Shown: positions 24,094 through 32,886 of the stretch, one piece after another
Layout: each line of letters begins with the position of its first letter
Position numbering within the stretch: position 1 is the first letter of the stretch
NCBI GenBank assembly: GCA_947567695.1
Contig: CANONT010000018.1
Span: 1 to 34,601, forward strand
Origin: an uncultured Clostridium sp.
Lineage (GTDB): Bacteria > Bacillota > Clostridia > TANB77 > CAG-508
DNA: 34,601 nucleotides
Reading direction: 5' to 3'
Notes under the pieces: generated by a model
Told to the model about the DNA's origin: nothing
The model's input: only the letters and a program-made list of their open reading frames with translations
Databases searched by the model: none
Program-made: the position numbers and the translations under genes

Positions 24094-27000
24094 ATGAAGA
24101 AATTAATTAGCATGATTGTAACAATTATGGTGTTAGTTTTAACAAGCACAATTTCAAATGCAAGTACAAGAGTAGAGGCGAGCTTGATTAGTACGTCTCA
24201 AAAACTATATAAAGGTGATCCAGTTGTATTTACATTAAAATTAGATACTTTTCAAGAAATAAAGTATGGGATTAATGCCTATCAAGGAACTTTTGTATAT
24301 GATAAGGCTATTTTTGAAGAAGTAAAAGAATCTGATTTTAAAGTAATGAATGGCTGGGAAGGATTGCAATATAATCCGAATACCAGTGAATTTGTTTTAT
24401 ATAAAAAAGCAGGAACAACTTTGGAGGAAGATGTAGTACAAGTTTCACTTAAAGTGAAAGAAGGGGTAAAAGCTACTAAGACAGAAGTAAAGATGGAATA
24501 TATGGTAACTTCACAGGGGAAAAATGATATTTATGTGGTTAATGGAGAAAAGGCAAAATTAAATATAGATATCCTAGAAGAACAACAAAAACCAGATGAT
24601 ACACCAACAGGTAAACCAGATATTAAACCAGGTGATACACCAACAGGAAAGCCAGATGATACACCAACAAGCACACCAGACAATAAACCAAGTGATAGAC
24701 CAAATGAAAAGCCAATTGTTACACCAGAAGATAATCCATCTAATCCAAAACCAGGGGGAATATCATCTAGCAAACCAACGATAGAAAAGCCTAATAAGCC
24801 AAGTACTGAAATAAAGCTAGAAGAACAGGAGCAATTATATCAAGGTAAATTGCCAAAAACAGGTAGAAATTATACCATGCTATTTTTATTATTAATAGCA
24901 GAAACATTATTAGCAATAAGAGCTGTATATTTTGGGAAGAAATGGATCACAAGTGAAAAAACAAGAATCTCTGTTGTGGCAACACTAGCAGTGGTATTAT
25001 CCATGCAATTCATAGGGACAGTTTATGGAGCAGTTACGACTTTTGCACAAAAAGGAGAATTAAATGGGGATGGAGCTGTAAATTATGCTGATGTTAATCT
25101 GTTAGCATCTCATTTAATCCATCTAAAATCATTGGGAGAAGACAAACCAATTGAAGAAGTAAAAACTCTATTAGAAAACGCAGATATGAATAGTGATGGA
25201 AAAATTACAATAACAGATTTGAGTATTTTAATTCAAAAAATAGAAAATAAGTTAAACTATGAAGTAACGATAAGAGAGTTACTAGTTAACAATTATTATC
25301 CAACTAAAAACGAAGAAATTGTAATAAGCTTCGATGCTGATGTAAATTATGATGCAATCATTCAAGCTATTACGATAAATGGAAAAGAATATGAAATAAA
25401 AAGAAATGAAGCTAATAACAATTTATATGAAATTAAAATAAACGTAGGAAATACTAGTGGTGTAACAGAGTATAAATTAGAAAAGGCAAAATTGGATAAT
25501 GGAAAAGAAGTGAAATTAAAAGAAACTATCAAGGTAGATATTTTAAAACAACAACCAGAAATTGAAAACTGGAGAGTAGAAGAAGATATTGAAAAAACAG
25601 AATTAAATCTATCTTATGATGTGGTAGATCCAGATAAATCTTTTATAATAGGAAATTATCGAATTATAGAGAAGAAACAAGAGAATGAAAATGCTACCCA
25701 AGAAACAACAGACTATATTCAAGAGGGAGAAATTGTTTCAGGGAATAACAAAATCAATGTAAAAGTAGAAGAAGGAAAAGAATATCAAATTTTACTAAGT
25801 ATGCAATATAACTTAGATACTGATACTTTAGAAGTAGAAGGCGATAATCAAGGAAGTGTTACACATCAAGAGGATTTAAGTTTTATTGTTAATTATGATT
25901 TCAAAGTTTCAAATTTTGAAACCTATCGTTATCAAGGCGAAACAGCAGAAAAAACAGAAGAATTTAAAGTAGGAGAAGTGATCGCCTTAAAATTTAGTAG
26001 TACCAATGCTACGACTTGTATGCCAAAAGAAGCTATCATAAATGGAAAAACCTATGAACTTACCAAAGAAAATGATACTTATAAAGCATTAGTAGATGGT
26101 TTATCTAGTACAGGGAACCATATGATTAAACTAGAGAAAGTTATCTTAACCAATGGAAAAGCGTTTGAGGTTAATCGAGAAATACCAGTAAAGATTATAA
26201 AAAATGCACCAAAGGTTAGCCGATTTAGAGTGAATGAAAGTGTAGAAACAAAAGAAATTAATATGTATCTTTATTTAAAAGATACAGACAAAACAATCAC
26301 AGACTTTACCGTAAAATTGTATGATGATCAAAATAATGAAATATATATTAAAAACTTAACCGATCAATTGGTAGAAGAAAATCTAACAGACGAAGAAAGT
26401 GAAGAAGAAATTAGAAATACTTATTATATCAATAGCCAGTTAGATACGAGTAAAGCAACTATGGCAAGTAGTTACAGAATAAAAGTGTTTGCTAATTATG
26501 AGTTATTAGAAAATGATAACCAATATACTCATACGCAAGAAATGTTATTAGAAGAAAAATTAGAAGCAACACCAGTAGTTAATATTAAAAAAGTAGACGT
26601 TTCTAAAAAATATCCAGAAAAAAAGGAAAGTATAACATTAACCTATGAAATTGAGACCAACAAAGAAGATTTAAAACTTACACATATCATGGTAAATAAT
26701 CTAAAATGTATCGCAACCAAACATATTGATAATGACGAAAATGCAACTTATTCTGTTACATTAAGTGCAGGAGAAACAGCAGGAATATTGAACTTAGATA
26801 CAACTGAATTCTTTTTTGAAGGAAATGTTACAGCAAATGCAAGCAATCGTGCTCAAGTAGATGTTCTAAAAGCTAAACCAACGAGTGAAGCATTTAAGCA
26901 AGTAGATGATATTCAAAATCATAAAGTTACCCTAACTGCTAATATCGTAGACCCAGATAAAGCTTTTATAAAAGGAAAAGCAGATTTAATTAGAAACAGT

Positions 27001-30000
27001 GACAATCAAATCATGGCAACCAAAGAGTTTGATGCTGAGCATATTACATTTGCTATTGAGAATGTAGAAATAGATACAGAATATACTTTAGTTGCTAAGA
27101 TGACCTATGATAGAGATACGAATCAATTACCAGAAGAAACCAATCAAAATTATGTGGAAGACGAAGAGTTTAGAAGGAGACCAATCCAATTAATTGCAGA
27201 TTATGAACTAAAAATTAATGATATTAAAACCTATAAAGGGGAAAAACAGACGAAATACTTTGAAAGAGGAGAAGAGGTAACCATAGCTTTTGACAGTACA
27301 AACAAAACAGTCTTTTATCCTGTCCAAGCAGTTATTAATGGAAAAACTTATTCACTAGAAAAACAAGGAACAATCTATAAAACCAATGTACCAGTAGTTT
27401 CAAGCTTTGGACCAAAAACGATTACCATAGAAAAAGTAATATTAGATAATACAAAAGAAATCGAAATTACTGAAAATAATCAAACAAGAGTAGGAATTTT
27501 GAAATTAAGACCAACTATCACTGGATTTGGTTATGTAGAAGATGAAGAAAATCAAGCCATTAAAGTAAATTTTGTGGTAAATGACACAGAAGATACTATA
27601 ACAGGAGGAACCATCAAAATTACAAATGAAAATGGAGAAATTGTAAAACAAGAACCATTTAACCGCAACCTGACAGAAATTAGCTTCCCAAAAGGGGTTT
27701 GTGAAGAATATGAAATAGAAATACTAGTAGATTATGACTTAGACACCAACCAAATTACAACAGGGGATAATGAATATGTAGCACAAAAATTATTAGCAGA
27801 AAGAATTAATATAAGTGCAGAACGTCTATTTGAGGTAAAAGACATCTTAGAAATTAGTTTATACCAAGAAGGAAAAGCATCTGAAGTAACAAGTATAACA
27901 GAATCACAATTAAAAGACCATTTAGATGACTATATCGTAAAAGTAAGAACCAAAGGAATGCCAATGTTCTATACAACAATTGAAGATTATGAAATCACAG
28001 AAGAAGGAGACTTAAACTTTATCTTAGCTTATGATCATGTGATTCAATATGAAGAAGGAACGAAACAAAATAAACTAAAAGTAACATATAGTAAAATGGA
28101 AAATGGAGTGGCACATAATAAAAGTATTGAATCTCTTATTGCTGAAATAGAAAAAGACCCAGCAGGAACCTTTACTTTAACACAAAACTATGATGCTTCT
28201 TATTTGAATGTATCAAGAAATAGCATTATACCAAATACTTTTAGAGGAACCTTAAATGGAAATGGCTATAAAATTTACAATGTGAATAAACCATTATTTG
28301 AAACCTTAGAAGGAGCAACGGTTAAGAATCTAACCTTAGAAAATGTAACCTTAGTAGGTGCTAATAGTAAAGGAGCGATTTCCAATGTAGCACAAAACAC
28401 AACTATAAGCAATGTTCATATTAAGGGATTAGATATGACAACAGGTTCTAATGAATCTGGTGGTATAGTTGGAGATTTACAATCTGGTTGTACCGTAGAA
28501 CAAAGTAGTGTAACAAAACTTCATATCAAATCAAACCATATTAGAGTAGCAGCCATTGCAGGAAAATTTGATGGAAGTACAATCCGAGACTGTTATGTAG
28601 AAGGTACCATAGAAGCAATTACTTCAACTATAAATGGGGTAGGAGGAATTGCTGGAGATGGCAATGGAACAGCGGATGCTAGCATCAACAATTGTATTGC
28701 TAAAATAGAATTTGTAAACATTACAAGAGCAAGCAATAATGGTGGAATTTTAGGACTTGGTAGAAATAACAAAGTAACCTTAACCAATAATATTAGTTTA
28801 TGTACAGGAACAGGTGTAAACAGGGTATGTGGTAATGCTATGAATTCTGTTTCAACAAACAACTATGAATTAGAAGAATCTGAACTAATTTCCAATGCAT
28901 CTGGCAATAAAGTTAAGAAAATAGCAAAAGCCAATATGAACCAAGAATTTTTTGTAGAAGAAGCAAAATTTGATGAAGAGATATGGAATTGTACCGATGC
29001 TTCTTACGAGAACTTACCAGCATTGAAAAAAGACATCCATAAGGAAGATGATATTGTAGTAGAAGAACCAACAACGAATAAGTTATATATTCCAGAATAT
29101 AGCAGAATTAAAAAGATAGCAGGATTTGATACCAATAAATTAACAACTTATCATAACTTGCATAAATTAATGCCATATTATGATGCAAAATACTTAGTAA
29201 TGGATGCATCAAGCATTCCTACTAACGATGTATTAAGTACAAAAGCAATTAAGCATATTTTACCTTATGCCAATGGAAAATTGATAACTTATATTACTTC
29301 AAAAGATTATCAAAAAATCACAACGATTAAAGTAGTCTTTGAAGATAATAGCGTAAAAGAATATACTGTGAACTTTGAAAAATTCCAACAAAATATAGCA
29401 ATTTATAAAATACCAGAACTAAAATTAAATTATGCTTATGATAATTATGCGATTAAAGAAGACGGAAGCATGATAAATACCATAGAACAATACATTAAAG
29501 GTCTTGACTATACAACTGATTTAGACCCACTAACAACAGCAGGAGATAGTAGATTATACAAAGATCATTACAATCAAATTATAAAAGCCAATGCAAAACA
29601 AATTGCAATGCAATTATTACAAAATGACGAAAATAGTGTACTTACTATGGAAAACAAGGTATTAAATAGTAAAATACAACAAGATTTAATTGACAGTGGA
29701 AAACTAAAAGAAATTGTATATGGATATACCTATTATGACAGATGGTATGGATTTGAAATAAGAGGAACGAAAGTAGCAGACCTAATGCTATTTGAAGGTA
29801 AAATGTATTCTGACTCAATGACCTATTATAATGTTGTAAAAGAAACGTTTGTAGGAAATTTAGTGCCAGGCAATACAGATGCATTCTACAATACTTGTCT
29901 AAAGAAATATACAGGAAGTTCAAGTATTGGTTATTTCTTAGACTATATAATAGCTAAGATTGGTGGATACGAAAATGTAGATGATTGGTTTACAGAGTAC

Positions 30001-32886
30001 TTTGGTAGTAGAAATATACTTGCTGAAGTTGCAGTAGACGATAAACCAGAAATATTATATCGTGGATGGTATCAACTTAAGAAAAATGCAAGAATGATAC
30101 TTCCCGTTATTACACTGCCAAATGATTGTGCTTATATGATTTCTGGACCTGCTCATTTACAATTTGGACCTTCTCAGTTATATCATAAAGATGTGAATAC
30201 GGATGCTGGAAGAACAGCAGTTAGAAATACAGTTAATAGTCATGTTAGCCTTGTAAAAAGACATTTTAGTACATTAGCAGACTCATTTGATTATGGCAAA
30301 TGGAATCGATATTGTATTATGGTTTATGATTGTACAAAAATAATTACAGGTTATAAAACTAGTTACTTCCCAGGCACAAATGTTCCAATAGGAACAACAG
30401 CAGTTTATACACAAGGAAAAGTTGGGCTACAATATCCATTCTTTAAGAACTTTAGTGAAGTTTTTGGACTATGGCAACCAGCAGGTAGTTCAGCAGGTGT
30501 TGGTAATACAGCTGGATTCTTATGGTTCCAAGCAAGACCAGGACTTACTAATTTTGATACTTGGACACACGAATTTGAACACGCTTTATATGATAAAATA
30601 ATGTTATATCAACGTGGTGCTAGAGTGCAACTTGAAACACTTACAGAAGGTAATGTTCAACAATATGCTAATTGGAGTGAAAACAATCTTATTCAAGATG
30701 TTGGACCATATTACTTTAATACATCTTTCTATTTGAATAAAGAAGGTAATGCCACTCAGAATTTAACACCTGAGAGAATTAATACAAAAGAAAAATTAGA
30801 AAATTATTATAAAGGACAACAAAATGCCCTAGATTTACTAGACTATATTGAAGGAAAAGCATTTATTAAATTAACACCAGAACAACAAGCAAAAATTGCA
30901 ACAAGAATGAATATATCTGCTGGTTGGTCTTCTTGGGGAGGCATTACAGCACAACAGGCAACAGCTATGAAATTAACATCCTTAGAAGCTTTATATGATA
31001 ATAGAATTGTGCTAAGACCAAATAATGCTTGGGGAGCAAGTGTAAGAGGATTAAAGGTTATCAATGGTCTTGGAAGTAATGATTATGGATTTGAATCTGT
31101 ATGGGTAAACCGTTGGTTTATTGGACATTTAGACGGTGGTTATGCCGATGCATTCTCTACCAAACGTAATTTCTTTGAGATGCTAGGTTATGCTGGAGTA
31201 GATGGATATGTTACTTATGGTAGCAAAGCATCTGCTAATGACTTAGATGCCATTAAGAAAATTACGAAAAAGGTAACTGGTACAGAAATGGATTGGAAAC
31301 AATACAAGATGAGCAGATACGAAACAGTAGAACAAAGTATTAATAACAATAAGTACATTGATGTTCAATATATGATTGATCGATTTACCGAAGCATTAGT
31401 AAATGATGCTAACAAAGGAGATAGAAATATTTCTCAAAGAACCAATCTTAGAAAGATTTATTATCATTACTTAAAGAGTGTTACCAATGATTTTGTAGCT
31501 GACCCACTTGGAAAAAATGTTAAAATGACCTATATTAGAACAGCACAAGAATTAGTAGAAAAAATGAATCAAGAGCCTTATGGTTATTATGTATTAGCAA
31601 ATGACATTGATTTTTCAGGAATGACAACCAATGTAACACAGACATTTATGGGGAGATTAAATGGTAATGGACATAAAATAATTGGTAATAAAATACCAAT
31701 CTTTAACAAAATTAGATATGGTTATGTTGGAAACTTGAAGCTAGAAGATACGGATATTCCAAGAAATATTACAAATGCAGGAGCTTTAGCGTATAAAATA
31801 GAATCTAGTACAGCAGAGAAAATCGATGTAACAGGTCTAAAAATGTACTTTGGTAGCAAAAATGATTTAAGCTTAATTGGGGGAGCAGTTAGTAATGTAA
31901 TTACGAGAGATTGTACTGTAGATCGTTTAGTGACAAAGATTTCAAATAAAGAAGAATTTGTAGAGAAAATAAATGCAGAAACAGGTGGACTATTTGAATT
32001 AACAGGCAATATAGACTTTACAGGATATACAGGTGGAAATGCTGTTATACCAGAAACCTTTACAGGAAAAATCGATGGAAAAGGTTATACAATTTCTAAC
32101 TTGAATAATGCTAGCTTATTTGCACAATTTAATGGAACAGTTCAAAACTTAAAAATAACAAACTTTACTAATACAGCAGCAACCACAGATTTTGTAGCAG
32201 CATTTGCTGGTAAAAGCTCAGGTGCAACCTTTACTGACATAAAATTTGAAAATATTACTGTACAAGGTAAAAATAATGTTGCAGTAGTGGTAGCAGTAGA
32301 TAACGCAAATTCTACTTTTGATAAAATTAGTGTTAAAAATGCAAATGTAAGTGGAAGCGGTGTTTATATAGCTGGGCTAGTTGGTAGAAAATATGGTGGA
32401 CGTGTAAGTAATGTATATGTTGACGGAAGTATTTCCATTACAGCAGTAGCCAATGCTGGTGTAATTGGTTCAACAGAAACCAATGTTACAGTAACTAATG
32501 TCGTGTCCAAAGTAAATATGGAAAGAACAGCCGATTCTGAAAAGAAAGGTAGAAAGCAAAATGCGGAAATGGTTGGATTACCAAATAGTAATACAAGTCG
32601 TATTAGCAATTCTATTACTTTAGGTAATATGACAGGTTATACAGCAGATATGGTTCCTTATAAATTTATGTATGCAGACGAAGCTTTGATGAATCAAATG
32701 CTTACAAATTGCTACGAATTGACAGAGGCAACAGGTATTAGTGGTGTTACAGCCAATACAGCAGGACATTTACAAACCGTTGCAAAACAAAATTTGAATG
32801 CACAATTTTATAGGAATTTAGGATTTGATGAGACGATTTGGGACTTTAGCAAAATTGCAACGAAAGGATATCCTGTATTAAAATAA
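24094..32886 (+). CDS. Giant cell-surface M26-like metallopeptidase with cohesin, internal LPKTG and dockerin
   Basis: Secreted, wall- or membrane-linked protein of 2930 residues. Order: signal peptide (1-23, cut likely after SNA); cohesin-like domain (about 26-165, GINAYQGTFVYDKAIFEEV); Pro/Thr/Asp linker (165-250); LPKTG sorting motif (253-257); membrane helix (259-280), basic loop GKKW, second helix (293-314); dockerin (321-387) with calcium loops NGDGAVNYAD and NSDGKITITD. Four Ig-like two-part repeats follow (about 388-1236), then a GLUG-type beta-helix (about 1330-1600). The M26-type peptidase region (about 1640-2470) has the zinc motif HEFEH (H2159, E2160, H2163), ETLTEGN just after it, and later KRNFFEMLGYAGVDGYVTYG. 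Two further GLUG-type stretches run to the end. Streptococcal IgA1 and Zmp proteases also carry LPXTG near the N-terminus followed by two helices. The substrate is unknown. The adjoining cohesin and dockerin are, to my knowledge, not typical of that family. Confidence 0.85.
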   Translation: MKKLISMIVTIMVLVLTSTISNASTRVEASLISTSQKLYKGDPVVFTLKLDTFQEIKYGINAYQGTFVYDKAIFEEVKESDFKVMNGWEGLQYNPNTSEFVLYKKAGTTLEEDVVQVSLKVKEGVKATKTEVKMEYMVTSQGKNDIYVVNGEKAKLNIDILEEQQKPDDTPTGKPDIKPGDTPTGKPDDTPTSTPDNKPSDRPNEKPIVTPEDNPSNPKPGGISSSKPTIEKPNKPSTEIKLEEQEQLYQGKLPKTGRNYTMLFLLLIAETLLAIRAVYFGKKWITSEKTRISVVATLAVVLSMQFIGTVYGAVTTFAQKGELNGDGAVNYADVNLLASHLIHLKSLGEDKPIEEVKTLLENADMNSDGKITITDLSILIQKIENKLNYEVTIRELLVNNYYPTKNEEIVISFDADVNYDAIIQAITINGKEYEIKRNEANNNLYEIKINVGNTSGVTEYKLEKAKLDNGKEVKLKETIKVDILKQQPEIENWRVEEDIEKTELNLSYDVVDPDKSFIIGNYRIIEKKQENENATQETTDYIQEGEIVSGNNKINVKVEEGKEYQILLSMQYNLDTDTLEVEGDNQGSVTHQEDLSFIVNYDFKVSNFETYRYQGETAEKTEEFKVGEVIALKFSSTNATTCMPKEAIINGKTYELTKENDTYKALVDGLSSTGNHMIKLEKVILTNGKAFEVNREIPVKIIKNAPKVSRFRVNESVETKEINMYLYLKDTDKTITDFTVKLYDDQNNEIYIKNLTDQLVEENLTDEESEEEIRNTYYINSQLDTSKATMASSYRIKVFANYELLENDNQYTHTQEMLLEEKLEATPVVNIKKVDVSKKYPEKKESITLTYEIETNKEDLKLTHIMVNNLKCIATKHIDNDENATYSVTLSAGETAGILNLDTTEFFFEGNVTANASNRAQVDVLKAKPTSEAFKQVDDIQNHKVTLTANIVDPDKAFIKGKADLIRNSDNQIMATKEFDAEHITFAIENVEIDTEYTLVAKMTYDRDTNQLPEETNQNYVEDEEFRRRPIQLIADYELKINDIKTYKGEKQTKYFERGEEVTIAFDSTNKTVFYPVQAVINGKTYSLEKQGTIYKTNVPVVSSFGPKTITIEKVILDNTKEIEITENNQTRVGILKLRPTITGFGYVEDEENQAIKVNFVVNDTEDTITGGTIKITNENGEIVKQEPFNRNLTEISFPKGVCEEYEIEILVDYDLDTNQITTGDNEYVAQKLLAERINISAERLFEVKDILEISLYQEGKASEVTSITESQLKDHLDDYIVKVRTKGMPMFYTTIEDYEITEEGDLNFILAYDHVIQYEEGTKQNKLKVTYSKMENGVAHNKSIESLIAEIEKDPAGTFTLTQNYDASYLNVSRNSIIPNTFRGTLNGNGYKIYNVNKPLFETLEGATVKNLTLENVTLVGANSKGAISNVAQNTTISNVHIKGLDMTTGSNESGGIVGDLQSGCTVEQSSVTKLHIKSNHIRVAAIAGKFDGSTIRDCYVEGTIEAITSTINGVGGIAGDGNGTADASINNCIAKIEFVNITRASNNGGILGLGRNNKVTLTNNISLCTGTGVNRVCGNAMNSVSTNNYELEESELISNASGNKVKKIAKANMNQEFFVEEAKFDEEIWNCTDASYENLPALKKDIHKEDDIVVEEPTTNKLYIPEYSRIKKIAGFDTNKLTTYHNLHKLMPYYDAKYLVMDASSIPTNDVLSTKAIKHILPYANGKLITYITSKDYQKITTIKVVFEDNSVKEYTVNFEKFQQNIAIYKIPELKLNYAYDNYAIKEDGSMINTIEQYIKGLDYTTDLDPLTTAGDSRLYKDHYNQIIKANAKQIAMQLLQNDENSVLTMENKVLNSKIQQDLIDSGKLKEIVYGYTYYDRWYGFEIRGTKVADLMLFEGKMYSDSMTYYNVVKETFVGNLVPGNTDAFYNTCLKKYTGSSSIGYFLDYIIAKIGGYENVDDWFTEYFGSRNILAEVAVDDKPEILYRGWYQLKKNARMILPVITLPNDCAYMISGPAHLQFGPSQLYHKDVNTDAGRTAVRNTVNSHVSLVKRHFSTLADSFDYGKWNRYCIMVYDCTKIITGYKTSYFPGTNVPIGTTAVYTQGKVGLQYPFFKNFSEVFGLWQPAGSSAGVGNTAGFLWFQARPGLTNFDTWTHEFEHALYDKIMLYQRGARVQLETLTEGNVQQYANWSENNLIQDVGPYYFNTSFYLNKEGNATQNLTPERINTKEKLENYYKGQQNALDLLDYIEGKAFIKLTPEQQAKIATRMNISAGWSSWGGITAQQATAMKLTSLEALYDNRIVLRPNNAWGASVRGLKVINGLGSNDYGFESVWVNRWFIGHLDGGYADAFSTKRNFFEMLGYAGVDGYVTYGSKASANDLDAIKKITKKVTGTEMDWKQYKMSRYETVEQSINNNKYIDVQYMIDRFTEALVNDANKGDRNISQRTNLRKIYYHYLKSVTNDFVADPLGKNVKMTYIRTAQELVEKMNQEPYGYYVLANDIDFSGMTTNVTQTFMGRLNGNGHKIIGNKIPIFNKIRYGYVGNLKLEDTDIPRNITNAGALAYKIESSTAEKIDVTGLKMYFGSKNDLSLIGGAVSNVITRDCTVDRLVTKISNKEEFVEKINAETGGLFELTGNIDFTGYTGGNAVIPETFTGKIDGKGYTISNLNNASLFAQFNGTVQNLKITNFTNTAATTDFVAAFAGKSSGATFTDIKFENITVQGKNNVAVVVAVDNANSTFDKISVKNANVSGSGVYIAGLVGRKYGGRVSNVYVDGSISITAVANAGVIGSTETNVTVTNVVSKVNMERTADSEKKGRKQNAEMVGLPNSNTSRISNSITLGNMTGYTADMVPYKFMYADEALMNQMLTNCYELTEATGISGVTANTAGHLQTVAKQNLNAQFYRNLGFDETIWDFSKIATKGYPVLK

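Follow-up and report, generated by a model that had tools for sequence, protein, structure and literature searches.

A cohesin and a dockerin-bearing M26-type protease in one precursor: a proposed two-piece wall anchor in an uncultured Clostridium sp.

How is a secreted protease held on the cell wall when its mature form has no wall-sorting motif of its own? The question is raised by a gene of an uncultured Clostridium sp. that encodes a cohesin, an internal LPXTG motif, two hydrophobic helices, a dockerin, and a large protease in one chain. The gene lies on contig C18 of a draft genome of 1.68 Mb that is 83.1% complete, and this contig of 34,601 nucleotides is the window referred to below. 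The open reading frame at 24094-32886 on the plus strand runs through 2930 codons without a stop and encodes 2930 amino acids; based on Pfam and NCBIfam matches, the whole gene is read as coding for a precursor that would yield a cohesin anchored to the wall and an M26-type protease that bears a dockerin. The order of parts had been described in an earlier note made from the DNA letters, and it is confirmed here.

All features are on the plus strand. The N-terminal signal peptide (residues 1–23, 24094-24162) is hydrophobic from residue 4 and its start is conserved in the orthologues. The cohesin (residues 24–160, 24163-24573) is followed by a P/T/D-rich linker (residues 165–252, 24586-24849) that is disordered in the structural model, features a 91-residue run poor in hydrophobic residues, and probably spans the wall. 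The sortase-type motif LPKTG (residues 253–257, 24850-24864) precedes hydrophobic helix 1 (residues 259–280, 24868-24933), a basic loop (residues 281–290, 24934-24963), and helix 2 (residues 291–312, 24964-25029). A predicted signal-peptidase site, VYG/A, ends helix 2 at residues 310–313 (25021-25032), 56 residues past LPKT. The dockerin follows (residues 321–383, 25054-25242), and the protease part features a Peptidase_M26_N region by Pfam profile match (27718-28428), a HEFEH zinc-protease motif found by motif scan (residues 2159–2163, 30568-30582) with Glu2185 as a possible third zinc ligand, and two further, weaker M26_N-like profile matches near the C-terminus (31537-31836 and 31951-32268).

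The favored explanation, which is considered probable, is that the precursor is cut twice and that its two pieces re-associate, giving the protease a non-covalent anchor made from its own gene. After export, sortase would cut LPKTG between Thr and Gly, past residue 256, and would join the upstream piece, the cohesin on its flexible linker, to peptidoglycan. Signal peptidase would cut VYG/A between residues 312 and 313, at the end of the internalized signal peptide helix 2, and free the downstream piece, which begins with the dockerin and consists in bulk of an M26-type zinc protease. The dockerin would then bind a cohesin in a presumably calcium-dependent manner, either that of its own precursor or that of a neighboring one, and the protease would be held non-covalently on the wall. 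The earlier note had proposed this mechanism, and it is partly supported by the predicted fold, the dockerin family, the order of parts, the matching domain types, and the predicted template modeling score (pTM); the two cuts and the binding are predictions.

Searches in several draws of genomes determined how widely the module occurs. A cohesin match is present in 48 of 58 genomes drawn from the window's genus. A module search of the genus gave some match at E ≤ 1e-6 in 179 of 210 genomes and a match spanning the module in one frame in at least 33 of the 210; in G168, G177, and G187 the module-spanning match lies in one frame and the dockerin is not detected by the profile. The family draw gave matches at E ≤ 1e-12 in 233 of 390 genomes, about 32 of them across one frame, of which seven belong to the window's genus and are already in the genus count. 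The class-wide draw gave 3 matches at E ≤ 1e-15 in 391 genomes, namely the window genome, a congener with the cohesin part only, and G642, a member of another family in the same order with a module match across one frame. Based on these counts, the module is common in one family and was met once outside it among the genomes drawn.

Homologues with the same order of parts, which the earlier note had suggested searching for, were found as 24 chains (class A, the window included) in 22 genomes of five genera. The conservation of this order in frame across the 24 chains rules out an assembly fusion as the origin of the chain. They were compared with 34 chains of a second class (class B) and with the chain on contig C33 of the window genome, which was set apart, giving 59 chains after a duplicate row, G398b, was removed from 60. 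Four matched chains were left out of this set (G059:C40, G167:C78, G487:C30, and G514:C52), and G002:C25 (locus L054), G049:C22 (L056), and G014:C9, which has a stop upstream, stand outside the class counts.

In class A the LPXTG motif lies ahead of helix 1 in 23 of 24 chains, the remaining chain has FPKTG, and the dockerin is kept. The end of helix 2 features a [VIT]Y[AG]x site in 23 of 24 chains, the exception being G173, and in one chain, G063b, the second helix falls below the hydropathy threshold. The predicted cut lies 56 residues past LPXT in 17 of 24 chains; the other distances are 59 (two chains), 60 (three), and 62 (one). This conservation and spacing rule out LPXTG as a chance pentapeptide. 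In the window protein LPKTG is followed by helix 1 and a basic GKKW, which is the pattern of a sortase substrate, and the protein scores 12.8 bits with the NCBIfam model for LPXTG, below the cut-off of 15.9. The motif is internal, away from the C-terminus, which is the usual place of sortase signals.

The best reading of helix 2 is an internal signal peptide, since free-standing relatives of the dockerin-protease have this site where their ordinary signal peptide ends. In other genomes the dockerin-first protein is a separate gene (21 such proteins), and all 20 of the 21 that were checked, some of them near-copies, start with a signal peptide that ends in the helix-2 motif. M26_N is present in all seven of these proteins that were scanned, and the protein of locus L118 is 77% identical to the window protein over 84 amino acids from GTVYG onward. 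A plain membrane anchor is a less likely role for helix 2 in class A, given this homology, and the alternative offered in the earlier note, that helix 2 and VYGAV (residues 310–314) form a signal-peptidase site, is the one that the sequence comparison favors.

One free-standing gene, at locus L122, may record the conversion of one form into the other. The DNA at its start codon aligns with the class A gene of L133 (80% over 65 bases, running into the first signal peptide), as does DNA further upstream (76% over 144 bases), and the alignment then jumps to the DNA coding for IGTVYG and the dockerin (77% over 100 bases). We read L122 as the probable product of an in-frame deletion that would have fused the two signal peptides and taken out everything from the cohesin to helix 1, the linker and LPXTG included. 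The L118 protein starts with the same residues as L122; the DNA comparison concerns L122 only. At L118 (1355-9283), L122 (1811-6724), and L133 (4514-11008) the dockerin-protease gene, with or without the cohesin part, follows a mutually similar gene that looks by eye like ftsL.

The two binding domains differ in how readily profiles detect them. The window cohesin scored 21.9 bits against Pfam Cohesin (PF00963) in the genome profile search, below the cut-off of 24.1, and PF00963 is absent from the hmmscan Pfam listing of the window protein at E ≤ 1. Pfam as sole proof of a cohesin therefore failed, and the fold was tested by modeling. AlphaFold2 with structure comparison predicts a cohesin fold for these residues, which are 13–17% identical to the Clostridium perfringens cohesins 2vo8, 2jh2, and 2w1n, two of which are described as parts of glycoside hydrolases; the VIA-align rows comprise the cohesin part only. 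The dockerin matches PF00404 (Dockerin type I) with 39.4 bits, over the cut-off of 22.9, and with 45.7 bits in the genome search. It features two calcium-binding-type loops, ELNGDGAVNYAD and DMNSDGKITITD, the first with Glu in its first position; calcium binding is predicted, and the domain is modeled with a pLDDT of 91–97. Of the profile checks named in the earlier note, Dockerin_1 thus exceeds its cut-off and Cohesin stays under it, and its cohesin reading is upheld by the predicted structure. The profile search found no second cohesin in the chain, so the several cohesins of a cellulosome scaffoldin are not present.

The structural model suggests that the two domains dock. The AlphaFold2 model has a pTM of 0.62. 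Under assumed errors, a pTM of about 0.37–0.47 is expected if the cohesin alone or the helices and dockerin alone are confidently placed, and 0.56–0.67 if the dockerin is placed against the cohesin. Since the value obtained exceeds that expected for domains placed apart, and falls in the range that needs the dockerin placed against the cohesin, it is indirect support for docking, suggestive rather than conclusive. An adaptor protein used as a control, whose cohesin and dockerin are of different types, gave a pTM of 0.48 with a poorly modeled dockerin, its alignment having 15 rows versus 42 for the window protein, which makes the comparison uneven. The structures used to train AlphaFold2 include many cohesin-dockerin complexes.

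The window genome contains other candidate partners. At the thresholds used, the profile search of the genome gave 9 cohesin and 8 dockerin matches. Five pairs are adjacent genes in which a dockerin protein stands beside a small cohesin protein (contigs C17, C19, C27, C47, and C50), three pairs lie in one chain or its remains (C18, C33, and C7), and the C8 cohesin is near a contig end with no adjoining dockerin. The small cohesin proteins of C8, C17, C27, and C50 have an LPXTG near the C-terminus, and a sortase gene adjoins the cohesin genes of C8, C27, and C50, the genome having nine sortase matches. In two of the five pairs (L017, 8357-15970, and L021, 3310-8176) the genes for the dockerin protein, the LPXTG cohesin, and a sortase are neighbors, as though each pair came with a dedicated sortase.

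The chain of C33 features a cohesin, an NIKTGD motif, two helices, and a dockerin, and C7 has similar parts in different frames. At C7 (L024, 5372-9560) the paralogue is split between frames across a repeat-coded NGGQ linker; phase variation and an assembly error are both possible causes. The motif N[IL][KN]TGD stands before a helix at two places of C33 (L019, 8251-9555 and 17393-17758), including a chain that ends at the contig end, and it may be a second sorting motif for another sortase specificity in the genome.

Among 20 regions fetched from the matches of the genus module search, 16 (L104-L119) feature a small adaptor gene that encodes one cohesin with one dockerin. These adaptor genes adjoin dockerin-first genes; in 15 of the 16, no other cohesin or dockerin gene lies between the dockerin-first gene and the adaptor gene upstream of it, and in L104 another cohesin gene intervenes. 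The adaptors point to a two-step assembly in which the dockerin of the protease would bind the adaptor cohesin and the adaptor dockerin would bind an anchored cohesin of the other type. In a tree of 100 cohesins (122 columns), the anchored cohesins are separated from a group (SH-aLRT 90) that unites both classes with 15 of the 17 adaptors and in which class A and adaptors interleave. In a tree of 110 dockerins (56 columns), which omits two class A dockerins of less than 45 amino acids, the split between N-terminal and C-terminal types takes two changes and is weakly supported, and 4 of the 12 C-terminal dockerins fall on the N-terminal side; many forks in both trees are open. The two adaptors outside the main adaptor group are from L070 and were omitted from the cohesin profiles described below.

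An earlier profile test had used class A orthologues and was partly circular, and it was therefore repeated without them. The new type profiles were built only from separate-gene proteins, 15 adaptor cohesins and 21 dockerin-first dockerins from other genomes. The window cohesin scored 142.5 bits with the adaptor-type profile versus 46.2 with the anchored type, and the window dockerin scored 94.6 bits with the dockerin-first type versus 27.1 with the C-terminal type. The opposite preference holds for every one of the genome's 8 remaining cohesins and 7 remaining dockerins, by small margins for the cohesins of C8 (11.0 versus 14.1 bits) and C33 (39.4 versus 45.4 bits). All 24 class A cohesins, and all 22 class A dockerins long enough to score, are of the window's type; in class B, 3 of 29 cohesins and 12 of 29 dockerins are not. 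Because the type-specific profiles match and no other copy in the genome prefers that type, the window cohesin is the likely partner of the window dockerin within the assembled genome; the trees agree with this matching, and a further partner may be missing from the assembly, since the genome is 83% complete.

These results bear on a rival explanation in which the chain is cut, but the anchored cohesin receives other dockerin proteins while the protease attaches to other cohesins, as in a cellulosome-like network. The 8 other cohesin and 7 other dockerin matches of the genome would provide such partners, and the proteases of L118 and L122 lack a cohesin of their own while their genomes have a cohesin adaptor elsewhere (L118 and L117). 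However, the two window domains match in type, nothing else in the genome is of that type, and the trees separate the types, the dockerin tree weakly. An exchange of partners is thus considered unlikely.

Class B bears on a second rival, in which the chain is left uncut. Class B features LPXTG in none of 34 chains and the helix-2 site in none of 34, which shows that a similar chain without the cutting sites is feasible. The difference in the site between the classes gives a Fisher value of 3e-15, which overstates the independent evidence because the site pattern was chosen after the sequences had been viewed and class B is a single clade in the cohesin tree. A single event in the ancestry of that clade could account for the absence of both sites. 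The median length of the linker between the cohesin and LPXTG or helix 1 is 78.5 residues in class A versus 47 in class B. Past the dockerin, no class A chain (0 of 24) and no free-standing chain (0 of 20) has a run of at least 30 residues poor in hydrophobic residues, whereas 29 of the 30 class B chains whose dockerin is detectable have one. This distribution of the post-dockerin run is the one expected if class B alone stays in the membrane, and together with the linker lengths it fits a cohesin displayed outside the wall in class A and, in class B, a cohesin and dockerin that stay at the membrane and are followed by a wall-spanning linker.

The rival explanation is that the window chain resembles class B, with both helices remaining as a membrane hairpin and the cohesin and dockerin closing as a cis clamp outside the membrane that holds or stiffens the protease. 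Class B has this build without the helix-2 site, and the matching types of the class A cohesin and dockerin would suit a clamp equally. However, class A keeps LPXTG and, in 23 of 24 chains, a signal-peptidase-like site at a mostly fixed spacing, and it is without the long post-dockerin linker of class B, which makes an uncut hairpin in class A improbable. Several relatives keep the cohesin and helices with a dockerin that is decayed or goes undetected by profile (L054, 1739-16396; L056, 2410-13878; L100; L101; L102; and L162), as if the clamp were being lost. The cohesin and helices of L054 and L056 are class-B-like; L056 has a ZmpB match of 133.7 bits, and L054 gave no Pfam match at E ≤ 0.001. 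M26_N was not found at E ≤ 0.001 in the giant class B proteins of L055 (1493-12889) and L057 (4372-18936), nor was ZmpB in L055.

Rough dN/dS values for 11 class A chains of the window's genus are lowest in the dockerin (0.09) and in the LPKTG stretch of 8 residues (0.12); the cohesin has 0.23, helix 1 has 0.25, helix 2 has 0.34, and the linker is highest at 0.42. By these values the part from cohesin to LPKTG does not look like a decaying relic. A third rival, in which signal peptidase makes the sole cut, the protease is secreted, and what lies upstream is left over from a gene fusion and anchors nothing, can point to the free-standing secreted relatives and to the one copy (L122) that apparently lost the cohesin part and kept the protease, but it is very unlikely given the apparent constraint on the cohesin and LPKTG stretch and the presence of the arrangement in five genera.

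The protease belongs with the M26-type enzymes by profile. Peptidase_M26_N scores 137.6 bits, over the cut-off of 27.7, HEFEH is a HExxH motif, and all three M26_N matches of the genome fall inside the 24094-32886 frame. The Pfam scan of the window protein lists no Peptidase_M26_C at E ≤ 1, a domain that two free-standing relatives have with 88.6 and 100.5 bits, and no G5 domain at E ≤ 1, and the best NCBIfam ZmpA-D score is 169.1 bits against a cut-off of 3000. Since it has no G5 and scores far under the ZmpA-D cut-offs, the window protein would not be filed as an IgA1 protease.

The IgA1 proteases and related Zmp enzymes are nevertheless a close comparison. The excerpts available of the published work describe Gram-positive metallo-IgA1 proteases with an N-terminal LPXTG and cleavage 56 residues beyond it (PMC9637739), an amino-terminal LPXTG in IgA1 protease and ZmpB-D (PMC7939560), a pneumococcal enzyme covalently linked to the surface by sortase A with a mature form of residues 154–1963 (PMC7695701), and an N-terminal domain of that enzyme with three membrane segments and an LPXTG anchor (PMC2225412). 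Like the window protein, these are M26-type proteases with LPXTG and hydrophobic helices near the N-terminus, and the 56-residue spacing quoted for them (PMC9637739) is that of most class A chains. The membrane segments are three in the pneumococcal enzyme and two in the window protein. The metallo-IgA1 and ZmpB-D enzymes carry G5, and these excerpts mention neither cohesin nor dockerin, whereas the window protein is without G5 and its pieces bear the two domains. With a cut 56 residues past LPXTG and a mature enzyme of residues 154–1963, the pneumococcal LPXTG would sit on the other piece.

A broader reading is put forward tentatively, with chances slightly short of even: the one-gene, two-piece anchor would be a general build, of which the streptococcal Zmp/IgA1 enzymes are a cohesin-free version with a non-covalent contact so far unrecognized, and class B an uncut membrane version with a cis clamp. 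If the two-piece anchor is true, it is a compact way of holding a secreted enzyme on the wall, and a cohesin before the cut with a dockerin after it is a ready answer to how a mature enzyme that lacks LPXTG could stay attached. The puzzle of pneumococcal attachment would also become testable, and the conserved module offers natural split, uncut, and shortened versions for comparison.

Among cohesin systems, the nearest in logic is the mucinolysome of Limousia, which according to the parts of the report available has an LPxTG-anchored cohesin, cSca5, and dockerin-bearing CAZymes and peptidases (PMC12997984). As described there, both are systems of gut bacteria in which a sortase-anchored cohesin is predicted to hold dockerin proteins, including peptidases, on the wall, and two Limousia scaffoldins whose chains combine cohesins with a dockerin are predicted to bind their own dockerins. 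However, the anchored cohesin of Limousia is, in this excerpt, one protein predicted to serve many enzymes, whereas the window has cohesin and dockerin-protease in one precursor with cutting sites between them. In Ruminococcus flavefaciens, ScaE is sortase-anchored and ScaC-type adaptors feature one cohesin and one dockerin (PMC4081043). As far as the excerpt goes, these resemble separate-gene versions of the window's parts, with an anchored cohesin and with adaptors like those beside the free-standing dockerin-M26 genes; it does not mention LPXTG and helices between cohesin and dockerin, or a fused protease, both of which the window has. In the open-licence literature, a search over partial texts found no report of a precursor in which a sortase site and an internal signal peptide separate a cohesin from a dockerin-enzyme, and no co-mention of "dockerin" with "peptidase M26", and the papers joining "dockerin" and "IgA protease" deal, in the text available, with enzyme immobilization and surface colonization. 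Each ingredient of the window protein is known from other systems, and their combination in one precursor is new as far as this search goes.
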